From Candidatus Cloacimonadota bacterium (GTDB lineage: Bacteria; Cloacimonadota; Cloacimonadia; JGIOTU-2; B8-G9): 8,333 bases of DNA. The notes under the pieces were generated by a model. It ran no database searches and was not told where the DNA came from. It saw nothing but the letters and a program-made list of their open reading frames with translations. Shown here piece after piece: positions 3,205-8,252 of the stretch. Position 1 is the first letter of the stretch. The number at the start of each line of letters is the position of its first letter. Position numbers and translations under genes: made by a program. The DNA is taken from contig QMNM01000046.1 in NCBI GenBank assembly GCA_003647765.1, positions 1-8,333 on the forward strand. The letters are read 5' to 3'.

Positions 3205-3246
3205 GATTTATTACAGATGGGTCTGGATTTATTACAGATGGGTCTG
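3205..3246 (+). repeat. Perfect tandem duplication of a 21-bp unit
   Basis: Two identical 21-bp units (3205-3225 and 3226-3246), each beginning GATTTATTACAG and ending GGTCTG, sit between hcp and ylxR. Because 21 is a multiple of three, they would encode D-L-L-Q-M-G-L twice in the ylxR frame, but they lie upstream of the likely ylxR start. The 141-nt gap holds no other convincing gene. A 14-codon open frame at 3162-3206 has a TTGGAG 9 nt upstream but no recognisable content. Confidence 0.8.
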
Positions 3247-3285
3247 GGCAGCTATACTTCCGATACATTGGATAAGTGGACTAAT

Positions 3286-3504
3286 ATGAAACATATTCCT
3301 CAAAGAAGCTGCGTTATATGCAGAAAGACGGAAAATAAATCTAACTTACTGAGATTTGTTTTACTATCGCAAAATAGGATTATTTTTGACCTGAAGCAAA
3401 ATCTATCCAGACGAGGATATTATTGCTGTGATGACAATAGTTGCTTAACAAAATTAAATAAATGGAAGATGACAAGAAAACAAGATGACAAGAAAACAAG
3501 ATGA
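3286..3504 (+). CDS. ylxR: YlxR-family RNA-binding protein, C-terminus replaced by repeat-encoded tail
   Basis: YlxR (DUF448) is a small protein almost always encoded between nusA and infB, and is thought to bind RNA or nucleoid. The preferred start is the ATG at 3286, preceded by a weak AAGTGGA; an upstream GTG at 3172 would add 38 residues with no family similarity. Family features are P5-x-R7-S-C9-V-x-C12-R13, the L21-L22-R23-F segment, the R42-R43-G44-Y core (normally GRGAY) and C48/C53. The protein is 72 aa against the usual ~90. The final helix expected after C53-L is cut short: residues 62-72 (M-T-R-K-Q-D-D-K-K-T-R) are encoded entirely by the 8-bp ACAAG repeat array that begins at 3469. 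It is the first gene of the translation cluster in this window. Confidence 0.85.
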   Translation: MKHIPQRSCVICRKTENKSNLLRFVLLSQNRIIFDLKQNLSRRGYYCCDDNSCLTKLNKWKMTRKQDDKKTR

Positions 3505-3557
3505 CAAGATAACAAGATAACAAGAAAACAAGAAGACAAGATAACAAGAAAATCAAG
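3469..3557 (+). repeat. 8-bp tandem array, NNNACAAG phase (about 11 units)
   Basis: Ten consecutive 8-mers ending ACAAG (ATGACAAG, AAAACAAG, ATAACAAG and AAGACAAG variants) run 3469-3548 without interruption, then a 9-base variant, AAAATCAAG, to 3557. The array starts inside ylxR, supplies that gene's last 11 codons and stop, and continues into the ylxR-infB gap. Confidence 0.95.
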
Positions 3558-3567
3558 AAGAGATATA

Positions 3568-3663
3568 ACTCTTGGACTCTTGACCTCTTGACCTCTTGAA
3601 CTCTTGAACTCTTGACCTCTTGACCTCTTGAACTCTTGAACTCTTGAACTCTTGAACTCTTGA
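3568..3663 (+). repeat. 8-bp tandem array, ACTCTTGA phase (12 units)
   Basis: Twelve consecutive 8-mers, ACTCTTGA with C-for-A variants at position 1 and one final G, fill 3568-3663. The reverse complement is CAAGAG-type, so this array opposes the preceding CAAG array head to head across a 10-nt gap. It ends 12 nt before the infB Shine-Dalgarno. Confidence 0.95.
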
Positions 3664-3675
3664 AATTATAAATTT

Positions 3676-3680
3676 GGAGG
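3676..3680 (+). promoter_or_regulatory. infB ribosome binding site, decides a TTG start
   Basis: GGAGG lies 8 nt before the TTG at 3689. The TTG at 3674 overlaps the Shine-Dalgarno itself and cannot be served by it, so the IF-2 start is TTG 3689. The resulting N-terminus, [12 protein letters not shown], matches the usual IF-2 beginning. Confidence 0.85.
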
Positions 3681-3688
3681 CTTTTAGT

Positions 3689-6070
3689 TTGGGAAAAGAG
3701 AGAATTTATAAAGTTGCCAGAAAATTAAAAATATCTACAACTGCTTTGATGTCTATTCTTAGTGATTTAGGAATACCGGCAAAAAGTCATATGAACTTTA
3801 TTCTTGCAGAAGACATAGATAAGGTTAAAAATCTATTTGAACAGCAGAAGGAAATGGTTAGAAAACGCGAGGAGAAAAGGAAAAAATATAGTAGTAAATT
3901 GAAAAAAAGATATAAAGAAGTTAAAGCTCAAGAACAAGTTTCAAAACCAGAAATGCCTTCTAAAAAACCTTATAAAAAGCGAATTATCACAGAAAAAGAA
4001 AAAAAATATGGCAGATATCGTCCTAGGTATTGGAGAAAAGCAAGAGAAGAGAAAGGAAAAGAAAAAGTAGAGATAAAGCCAGAGATAAGACTAAAACCTA
4101 AAAAAGTATTACCTGCTGCTTCTGTAGAGAAACTCCCACAAAAGAAAAAACAGAGAAGAACTAAACCAATAGCAATATCTAAAAAAGATAGAAGAGCAGA
4201 GGAACAGGAGAAAAAATTCTATAGTGAGGAGCAGATTCGCAGAAGTATTAGGATAACTTTGTCAAAAGATAAAAAGAAGAAATATAAAAAAGTAAAAGAA
4301 GAAGTAAAACGGGAAAGTAAAATTGTTATTTCTGAATTTACTTCTGTCAGGGAATTAGCGAAAATAATGAATATTGAATCAGTAGAGATAGTAGGCAAAT
4401 TTTTAGAATGGGGCAAAATGGTTACTATTAACCAGCGTCTTGATAAAGAATCCTTAATTATGATTTGTGATGAGTTCAATTTTGATGTTGAATTTGCTGA
4501 CCAGTATGGGAGTGATATTATAGAGGGCTTAAAGCAGGAAGTATCAGAAGATCAATTAGTTATTCGTCCTCCTGTTGTTACTATTATGGGGCATGTTGAT
4601 CATGGCAAGACATCGCTTTTGGACTACATAAAAAAAACGAATGTAGTAGCTGGCGAGGTAGGAAAAATAACTCAACATATAGGGGCTTATAATGTCAAAT
4701 ATAAAGGTAAGAGTATAACTTTTATTGATACACCTGGACATGCGGCATTTACTGCGATGAGAGCTAGAGGTGCTAATATCACTGATATTGCAGTTATTCT
4801 TATAGCGGCAGATGATGGAGTTATGCCACAAACTATAGAAGCAATTGACCATGCTCGTAATGCTGATGTGCCTATTATTATTGCAATTAGCAAAATAGAC
4901 CTGCCTGAAGCAGATTCAGAAAAAGTAAAAAAGCAGCTTGCAAATATAAATGTTCGTCTTCAAGGATGGGGCGGAAAAATAGAATATGTAGAATGTTCAG
5001 CAAAAACAGGACAAGGTGTAGATAAGTTATTAGACCTAATTAGTTTAACCGCAGAATTAGAAGAATTTAAGGCAAATCCACAAGGAAAGGGCGAAGGAAC
5101 TGTTATTGAAGCTGAATTAGATGAAGGCAAGGGACCTTTGGTTACTATATTATTAAGAGATGGAAAGGTAGAAATTGGAGATATTGTAGTTTGTGGACCT
5201 TTTGAAGGTACAGTAAGATCTATGTATGATGAAAGAGGAAACCCTATAAAATACTGTGGACCTTCAGGTGTAGTAAGATTAGTAGGACTATCTGGAGTAC
5301 CGCAAGCAGGGGATACTTTTAATGTTGTAGAAGACAAAAAAACAGCACGAGAAATCAGCAGTAAGAGACATCAGATATTTAGAGAGAGACAAATTATGCA
5401 TGAAGGAACTGTAACCTTAGATAATTTATTTGATAAAATTAAACAAGGAAACATAAGTCATTTAAATGTAATAATCAAAGCAGATATGGATGGTTCTGTT
5501 GAGGCAGTAGCTGATGTGCTACAAAAAATCTCTACTCCTCAAATACCTATAAATATTGTTCACCGTGGCGTAGGAGGAATCACAGAAACGGATGTAAATC
5601 TAGCTATTGCTTCATCATCTATAATCATAGGATTCCATATAAGACCAAATAATAATGCTAAACAATTAGCAAAAAAGAATAATATAGATATAAAATTATA
5701 CGAAATTATATATAATATTGAAAATGATATTAAAAAATCAGTAGATGGAATGATCGCTCCAATAATGCGTGAAAAAGTACTTGGTACAGCAGAAGTTAGA
5801 CAAATATTTAAAATCCCAAAAGTAGGTGTTATTGCTGGTTCAAATGTGCTTGAAGGAAAAATTTCTCGTAATAGCAAAATTAAACTATACAGGAATAATG
5901 TAAAAATATATGAAGGTAATGTTATTTCTTTAAAAAGACTTAGTGATGATGTTAATGAGGTAAAACAAGGTTTTGATTGTGGTATAAGAATAGAAAATTT
6001 CAATGACATAAAAGTAAGCGATATTATTGAAGCTTACGAAATTGTAGAAGAAAATACTAAAACAGGTTAA
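3689..6070 (+). CDS. infB: Translation initiation factor IF-2, with SKID in place of NKxD
   Basis: IF-2 is the GTPase that brings initiator fMet-tRNA to the 30S subunit and promotes 50S joining. Starting at TTG 3689 it is 793 aa, a normal bacterial length. Order of parts: IF2_N domain 1-52; a Lys/Arg/Glu-rich linker about 55-210; a second IF2_N-like domain about 214-270; G domain about 290-460; beta-barrel domain II from about 470; domain III from about 575; and the C-terminal fMet-tRNA-binding barrel from about 695, closing in [14 protein letters not shown]1 is GHVDHGKT (301-308), G2 is in [11 protein letters not shown]3 is DTPGH (347-351) and G5 is SAKTG from 437. G4 reads S401-K-I-D404 where NKID is expected (codon AGC). 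It is otherwise intact. It follows ylxR and the repeat arrays, and ylxP follows after 43 nt. Confidence 0.97.
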
Positions 6071-6500: not shown

Positions 6501-6534
6501 TAATTGCACATAAGTAATATTTTTTTGTATCTTC

Positions 6535-6590
6535 TTACGCTTTACGCCCTACGCCATACGCTTTACGCATTGCGCCCTACGCCCTACGCC
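6535..6590 (+). repeat. Heptamer tandem array, NTACGCN, 8 units
   Basis: Eight uninterrupted 7-bp units based on TTACGCC/CTACGCC (one GCGCC variant) fill 6535-6590. A sister array lies after rbfA at 7044-7085. The units are markedly more GC-rich than the flanking DNA. Confidence 0.95.
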
Positions 6591-6600
6591 TTGTATGTTT

Positions 6601-7027: not shown

Positions 7028-7043
7028 ATTTTATAAAATATCT

Positions 7044-7085
7044 CTACGCCCTACGCATTACGCTCTACGCCCTACGCATTACGCA
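7044..7085 (+). repeat. Heptamer tandem array, NTACGCN, 6 units
   Basis: Six 7-bp units are organised as two 21-bp higher-order units (7044-7064 and 7065-7085) differing only in the final base. If read in the nrnA frame they would give the peptide R-P-T-H-Y-A-L twice, a spurious N-terminal extension. The array fills most of the 76-nt gap between rbfA and nrnA. Confidence 0.95.
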
Positions 7086-7103
7086 TATATCGGTATTTTT
7101 ACA

Positions 7104-8252
7104 ATGATAAATTTACAATATTTTAAAAGGTCTATTATAGAACTAATTAAAAATAGTAATGATATTGTTATCACTGGGCATGAAAATCCTGATGGCGACT
7201 CTATAGGTTCAGAAATTGCATTATATTTACTTTTATCGCAGATGGGTAAAAATGTACGAATTATAAATCATGATCCTTGTCCAGAAACATATTATTATCT
7301 AACAGGAGCAGAAAAAATAGAAACATCATATTCAAATGATTCTTCGGATAATAAGAAAATTTTTCAACTCGCTTTTATGTTAGACCATAATGAGAGGAAA
7401 CGAACAGGACAAAATCTTGTTAAAATCTATGATAATTCGCGAACCTTAATCAGAATTGATCATCATAAAGAAAATGAAAAAATAGAGCAAAGTATTAGCT
7501 ATATTGATGAAAGTTATGCGGCTACTTGTGAAATTCTATATTTCATCTTCTATAAAGAGATAGAAAATCTGCCTACAAAAATACGACTACATATTGCTAA
7601 TGCTTTGTATACTGGCATTATCTATGATACAAACAATTTTGTGAACAGAAATACAAATTGCAGAACATTTTCTGTATGTGCAAAGTTGACTGAATGGGGT
7701 GTTGAACCGAGTTATGTATATGAGAAAATTTTTAATATGCGCTCTGTTTCAGAGGTTAAATTGCTTGGTTATTCATTAGCCAATATTGAACCTTATATGG
7801 ATGGAAAACTAATTCTAATGATAACACATAAGGACATTGCAAATGAATTAAATGTTGATATTGACAAGACTAATAAGTTTTTAGCGGAATTGCAAATGAT
7901 AAAGGATTGGGAAATCATTGTGTATATTAGAGAATTGGATAAGGATTATTTTAGGGTAAGTTTACGGGCAAAACATATTGATATTAGACAAGTGGCTGAA
8001 TATTATGGTGGTGGTGGACATAAGCTAGCTGCTGGCTTTAAAGTTAGACAAAATCTATTTAATCTAAAAGAAGAGCTAATCAAGACCTTATGCAACCTGA
8101 TAAATTACAAGAGTTCAAGAAAACAAGAAAACAAGAGTTCAAGAAAACAAGAAAAGAATGCTGATGCTGTGAAAAGGAATATTTTGTTAGAAATTTTTTC
8201 GTGTTTCTTCGTGTTCTTCGTGGCTAACAAGAGTAGAACGCTGATACTGTGA
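7104..8252 (+). CDS. nrnA: DHH-family nanoRNase / pAp phosphatase, with repeat-encoded C-terminal tail
   Basis: NrnA-type DHH/DHHA1 phosphoesterases degrade 2-5 nt RNA fragments and can remove phosphate from pAp. The first ATG after the heptamer array, 7104, is preferred; an upstream ATG at 7011 would overlap rbfA and translate the array. The product is 382 aa. Metal-binding motifs are H26-x-N-P-D30-G-D32-S, D94 in LDHNERKRTG (usually DxSDxxR, so divergent), D119-H-H121, and D175 in GIIYDTNNF. The DHHA1 domain has the substrate-binding G302-GGG-H306-K. Normal family proteins are about 310-340 aa; the core here ends near residue 335. Residues 336-382 are encoded by three repeat families in a row: K-S-S-R-K-Q-E-N twice, then A-D-A-V-K-R-N-I, then F-S-C-F-F-V-F-F-V-A. 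The enzyme is probably functional, with an odd basic and then hydrophobic tail. Confidence 0.93.
   Translation: MINLQYFKRSIIELIKNSNDIVITGHENPDGDSIGSEIALYLLLSQMGKNVRIINHDPCPETYYYLTGAEKIETSYSNDSSDNKKIFQLAFMLDHNERKRTGQNLVKIYDNSRTLIRIDHHKENEKIEQSISYIDESYAATCEILYFIFYKEIENLPTKIRLHIANALYTGIIYDTNNFVNRNTNCRTFSVCAKLTEWGVEPSYVYEKIFNMRSVSEVKLLGYSLANIEPYMDGKLILMITHKDIANELNVDIDKTNKFLAELQMIKDWEIIVYIRELDKDYFRVSLRAKHIDIRQVAEYYGGGGHKLAAGFKVRQNLFNLKEELIKTLCNLINYKSSRKQENKSSRKQEKNADAVKRNILLEIFSCFFVFFVANKSRTLIL
8108..8155 (+). repeat. CAAG 8-bp tandem array (6 units) inside the nrnA 3' end
   Basis: Units CAAGAGTT, CAAGAAAA, CAAGAAAA are repeated exactly twice, giving a 24-bp higher-order unit (8108-8131, 8132-8155). 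CAAGAGTT is the reverse complement of the AACTCTTG register of the array before infB, and CAAGAAAA matches a register of the other array there. It thus joins both types in one orientation. Confidence 0.95.

Follow-up and report, generated by a model that had tools for sequence, protein, structure and literature searches.

Why do two arrays of 8-bp repeats face each other between ylxR and infB, and does the RNA hairpin that they can form serve infB? The locus lies in a stretch of 8,333 nucleotides (the window) from a 1.97-Mb Cloacimonadota MAG of 360 contigs and 88.8% completeness, and the nearest named relatives of its InfB are also Cloacimonadota proteins. An earlier note on this DNA had described two opposed arrays ahead of infB, forming a ladder that starts inside ylxR and stops 12 nt short of the infB Shine-Dalgarno (SD) sequence, and had suggested a possible role in ylxR-infB read-through, RNA stability or processing. 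The coordinates and geometry of that description are correct, with 11 CAAGA units opposed to 12 TCTTG units (Table 1).

Table 1. Repeat arrays of the window and the genes on either side of the facing pair
Feature	Position	Strand	Description
ylxR (PF04296)	3286..3504	+	72 aa
Array A	3473..3558	-	11 CAAGA units on + (TCTTG on -), at the ylxR stop
Junction separating arrays A and B	3559..3569	no strand	11 bp
Array B	3570..3662	+	12 TCTTG units, one per 8 bases, 3570 to 3658
infB	3689..6070	+	793 aa from putative TTG start; SD GGAGG 3676-3680
Heptamer TACGCNN array	6534..6592	+	ylxP-rbfA gap
Heptamer TACGCNN array	7042..7086	+	rbfA-nrnA gap
Second octamer array, CAAGA sense	8108..8152	-	in the 3'-terminal part of the nrnA frame

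The CAAGA cores of array A follow a period of 8 from 3473 and 3481 through to 3545, with the last unit, at 3554, at a period of 9. Its spacers are TTT, TCA, TTA and TCT, while those of array B are GAC, ACC and AAC; the TRF scores of the two arrays are 111 to 161. The last ∼10 codons of ylxR and its stop TGA (3502-3504) fall within array A, and 12 to 14 nt separate the end of array B (about 3662-3664) from the infB SD. InfB most likely starts at the TTG at 3689, the point from which its relatives align. Upstream of ylxR (3205-3247), there is also an exact 21-bp tandem duplication, GATTTATTACAGATGGGTCTG.

Folding of positions 3460-3700 as RNA gave -56.9 kcal/mol compared to -38.4 ± 3.8 kcal/mol for shuffled sequences (z = -4.8), with a predicted structure in which 5-bp helices are stacked and most of the internal loops are 3x3, and the ladder is thus more stable than shuffled sequence, the comparison that the earlier note had proposed. 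This low energy, the position of the ladder directly between the ylxR stop and the infB SD, and the presence in the genome of five facing pairs with none in the opposite order could all be read as signs of a selected RNA element that protects, processes or uncouples the ylxR and infB cistrons. The spacers, however, do not behave as this would require. Holding the cores fixed and replacing the right-arm spacers with random draws from ten that are frequent in the genome gave hairpins of -86.7 ± 7.7 kcal/mol, while the actual hairpin in the infB gap has -53.9 kcal/mol and is therefore about 33 kcal/mol (about 4 sd) weaker than the redraws; a perfect inverted repeat in place of the arms gave -136.9 kcal/mol. 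The arm spacers are anti-complementary relative to random draws, the opposite of what is expected under selection for a stem, which would fit either two separate subfamilies or a loss of perfect long inverted repeats. Together with the absence of arrays from relatives, the weaker-than-redrawn hairpin argues against selection for an RNA ladder, and facing pairs of mixed families, which cannot form a ladder, share the same arrangement. No intrinsic terminator (a GC-rich stem followed by a T run) was found at the array site and an Rfam covariance-model search of the array region gave no match, so we rejected both a terminator and a known structured RNA. A selected RNA element is, in our judgment, highly improbable, and the proposed role in read-through, stability or processing is unsupported; among the options raised at the outset, a neutral cruciform-prone array has the best support.

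The local history of the operon can be followed in relatives of the same taxonomic order, where the genes run nusA-ylxR-ylxQ-infB, with overlapping or tightly spaced genes and no arrays (the gene that we take to be ylxQ was named from its operon position and general knowledge of this operon). Here, the gene ahead of ylxR encodes a Prismane-family (hybrid-cluster-protein-like) product, ylxQ is missing between ylxR and infB with no intact copy found elsewhere in the MAG, and the ylxR-infB interval is occupied by the two arrays. This comparison of gene order indicates that the facing pair stands where ylxQ has been lost and provides the last part of ylxR. The ylxP-rbfA gap, a few bp in relatives vs about 270 bp here, contains a heptamer array. 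The arrays thus entered an operon that is functional in relatives in their absence.

The arrays in the infB gap are not a unique infB device but one of many such gap arrays. This genome has 137 + 97 occurrences of the TCTTGNNN triple pattern, compared to 1 + 0 for a reversed-pattern control; of the other 123 genomes of the phylum, just 2 contain the pattern, at few places in each. A heptamer family, TACGCNN, is similarly common (117 + 134) and is almost missing from the rest of the phylum. In a TRF survey of about 875 kb of contigs, we found 140 arrays of period 5-12 belonging to at least eight families, those beyond the octamer and heptamer having periods of 7-10 bp and including TTCGTGTTTC, CTCTGTGTT, CAATCTTTT and ACACTGATT. 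Array counts are lower bounds, as several contigs end inside arrays, and array lengths may be collapsed by MAG assembly. A literature search by the literal repeat sequences found no description of these repeats.

We then assigned every array to its nearest gene edge, with genes called by a codon-score script and hence approximate starts, in 115 sequentially numbered contigs (C1-C115) from which the window and contigs chosen for octamer pairs were left out. Within 10 nt of stop edges, 0 arrays were forward and 23 reverse, that is, with CAAGA, GCGTA or CACAGAG reading outward from the gene. The bias was still present at 11-30 nt (16 reverse and 3 forward) and was gone beyond about 30 nt (12/11 at 61-250 nt). 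At start edges, 30 arrays were forward and 3 reverse up to 120 nt, with TCTTG, TACGC, TTCGTG or CTCTGTG reading toward the start, and no bias was left at 121-250 nt (7/7). Within 30 nt, the Fisher test gave 2.6e-7 for all families pooled and 0.0017 for the TACGC family alone; the octamer alone was weaker in the unbiased sample, with 1 forward and 10 reverse at stops, 3 forward and 1 reverse at starts, and a p of 0.03. The rule holds in ++, --, -+ and +- gaps and for several unrelated cores. A k-mer test that does not depend on array definition agrees with it, both toward starts (TTCGTG, 34 vs 5; CGTGGC, 21 vs 1) and toward stops (ACGCAT, 27 vs 5). Copies placed without any orientation rule, which the earlier note had counted as evidence against its ladder, are therefore not what this genome contains; the rule is strong, but what it relates to is gene edges and not hairpins. 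In gaps across L068-L190, TTCGTG and CTCTGTG arrays often end in GTGGCTAA ahead of the start codon (GTGGCT, 43 vs 6 of 381 start edges).

Facing pairs follow from the outward reading of the arrays at the two edges of a gap. The genome contains 5 CAAGA-to-TCTTG pairs within 60 bp (C18, C72, C123, C143 and C293) and 0 in the reverse order, and mixed-family neighbors in the unbiased sample are facing in 8 cases and opposite in 0, across all four gene arrangements. Each of the five same-family pairs combines one AAC/ACC/GAC arm with one TTA/TTT/TCA-type arm. The proposal that the opposed arrays derive from one family by inversion lacks support in that form, given that spacer triplets differ between the arms at 5/5 facing loci, and we rejected a simple inversion of one array on the same grounds.

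Some of the pairs are a composite block that recurs at several loci, in which an octamer (CAAGA) array is followed by a GCTGATGCTGTGAAATAGGAATATT linker, a TTCGTG array and GTGGCTAA, and this recurrence suggests that part of the spread occurred by block copying. The window contains such a composite element, with the octamer array at 8108-8152, a linker and a TTCGTG array at 8194-8222. The nrnA reading frame continues across all three (8108-8252), which would give the protein an array-coded C-terminal tail.

The recurrent block, the same two arm types in all five same-family pairs, the right-arm start CTCTTGGACTCTTGACCTCTTGACC shared by C72 and C293, and the presence of one Y1 transposase gene in the genome are what one would expect if a facing pair and its linker were copied as one unit, as in REPINs or MITEs, with lone arrays as remnants. 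In the unbiased sample, nevertheless, octamer arrays mostly stand alone, and no arrays flank the single Y1 transposase gene within the 1.9 kb examined, for which reason a REP/RAYT link was rejected. We therefore regard mobile composite elements as an unlikely explanation.

A directional generating process would also account for the rule. If broken or excised gaps were healed by repeats added outward from both ends and then joined, every array would read outward and every pair would face. The validity of the rule in all four gap types for several unrelated cores and the fact that the arrays here stand in for a lost gene agree with such end-directed synthesis, as does the toward-edge k-mer bias, which is correlated between start and stop edges for GC-rich 6-mers (rho 0.40); over all k-mers, where the start-edge bias is dominated by SD sites, the correlation is nil (0.035). 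Yet there is no candidate enzyme, the absence of any match to the reverse transcriptase domain (PF00078) led us to reject a reverse transcriptase as the source of the arrays, and the rule fades tens of bases from stops, which selection explains equally well. End-directed synthesis is thus very doubtful. The broader proposal, that an unrecognized process works outward from either side of a gap, adding or inserting short repeats, and thereby gives several unrelated families one gene-edge polarity law and leaves facing arrays as scars, seems to us a slender prospect, if a little less so.

We consider it reasonably probable that the infB-gap pair consists of two separately descended arms of dispersed, noncoding intergenic tandem arrays at gap edges, with the ladder as a by-product. 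The array unit is a 5-nt CAAGA/TCTTG core with a 3-nt variable spacer, placed at the edges of gene gaps, where the octamer and the other families read outward at stop codons and inward at starts; a gap with the same family at both edges has a facing pair, whose RNA can form a ladder, as seen at 5 loci. Slipped-strand replication most likely multiplied the units, and copying of composite blocks most likely dispersed them; their orientation was probably filtered by selection, which could favor stop codons supplied by the arrays at 3' ends and, before starts, sequence free of decoy starts or SD-like sites. As for the RNA ladder, it most likely has no dedicated role and arises as a by-product. Two points speak against this overall explanation. 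The TTCGTG and CTCTGTG arrays contain no stops and obey the rule all the same, a polarity that selection for stop-codon supply leaves unexplained. In addition, 5 same-family facing pairs were seen where a rough estimate under independent occupancy gives about one, so the arms may to some extent be linked, may be copied together, or may have a role through pairing.

Tandem repeats with similar placement are known in other bacteria. The STRR heptanucleotide repeats of cyanobacteria are likewise short tandem intergenic arrays, although with a period of 7 and other cores. Heptanucleotide repeats of Calothrix have also been mentioned (PMC4692102). The closest parallel is with the GGGAATC heptamers of Xanthomonas, which lie no more than 50 bp from stops when on the coding strand and from starts when on the opposite strand, have all stop-overlapping arrays in one orientation, and form 70 to 75 convergent pairs per genome (70 and 75 cases) (PMC4692102). 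Our arrays resemble them in being dispersed, intergenic and of short period, with a conserved core and variable positions, and in having both a two-sided orientation rule and close convergent pairs (5 vs 0). They differ in comprising an octamer and several other families with 7- to 10-bp periods in an AT-rich genome, and in their composite blocks, their mixed-family pairs and a CAAGA core that lacks G-tracts. The TAACTGA direct repeats of marine Beggiatoaceae, Cyanobacteria and Bacteroidetes are heptamers with a fixed orientation toward the start codon and an occasional reverse set just after the stop, for which a translational role has only been proposed (PMC4679880). They share with our arrays the pointing at starts and the reverse sets after stops but have mainly a start-side rule, one core and few inverted pairs (one in BOGUAY) (PMC4679880). 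REPINs are dispersed, extragenic and hairpin-capable, with two inverted copies around a short spacer; each REP unit is a conserved palindrome, changes in the hairpin are compensatory, and a RAYT is associated (PMC3116915). The infB-gap pair is also an inverted doublet with a short spacer, but it is built of nonpalindromic octamer arrays whose spacers are anti-complementary rather than compensatory, and no RAYT link was found within the 1.9 kb examined at the single Y1 transposase gene.

For GGGAATC, a polarity rule covering both stops and starts, together with convergent pairs, is thus already published, as is a start-side rule for TAACTGA; new here are the different core, period and phylum, several families together, and the absence of the G-quadruplex feature. 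The published two-sided rule had been discussed for one G-rich heptamer family, GGGAATC/GGGGA(T/C)T of Xanthomonas and Nostoc, tied to G-quadruplexes (PMC4692102). There is no GGG in our octamer core or common spacers. With dispersed arrays of 7-8 bp units around a conserved core, a two-sided orientation rule and close convergent pairs, the octamer arrays belong to a wider gene-edge polarized kind and not to G-quadruplex repeats. Since an unrelated phylum shows the same rule, with cores that lack G-tracts and periods of 7, 8 and 9-10, its general cause cannot lie in G-quadruplexes. Whether polarity originates in selection at stops and starts or in a directional generating process becomes testable across genomes, and even a conspicuous inverted-repeat hairpin in a gap of this kind is not necessarily an RNA element.

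In another Cloacimonadota genome (G072), higher-order tandem units of CGCATAA/CGGATAA heptamers joined with AATCTGTGAAATCCGTGTAATCTGTGTGAGACC occur at several places (L230, L243 and L249); few of its CGCATAA arrays lie near called genes, with 4 reverse at stops and 3 forward and 1 reverse at starts. Within the window, the gap between the desulfoferrodoxin and DUF2249 genes (863-1046) begins with GCCACAAAACTACACCAAAAAACACGAA and ends with TTATGAACTTTTGTGAATTTTTGTGGC; the two form an inverted pair that is degenerate and has GCCAC/GTGGC at its ends.
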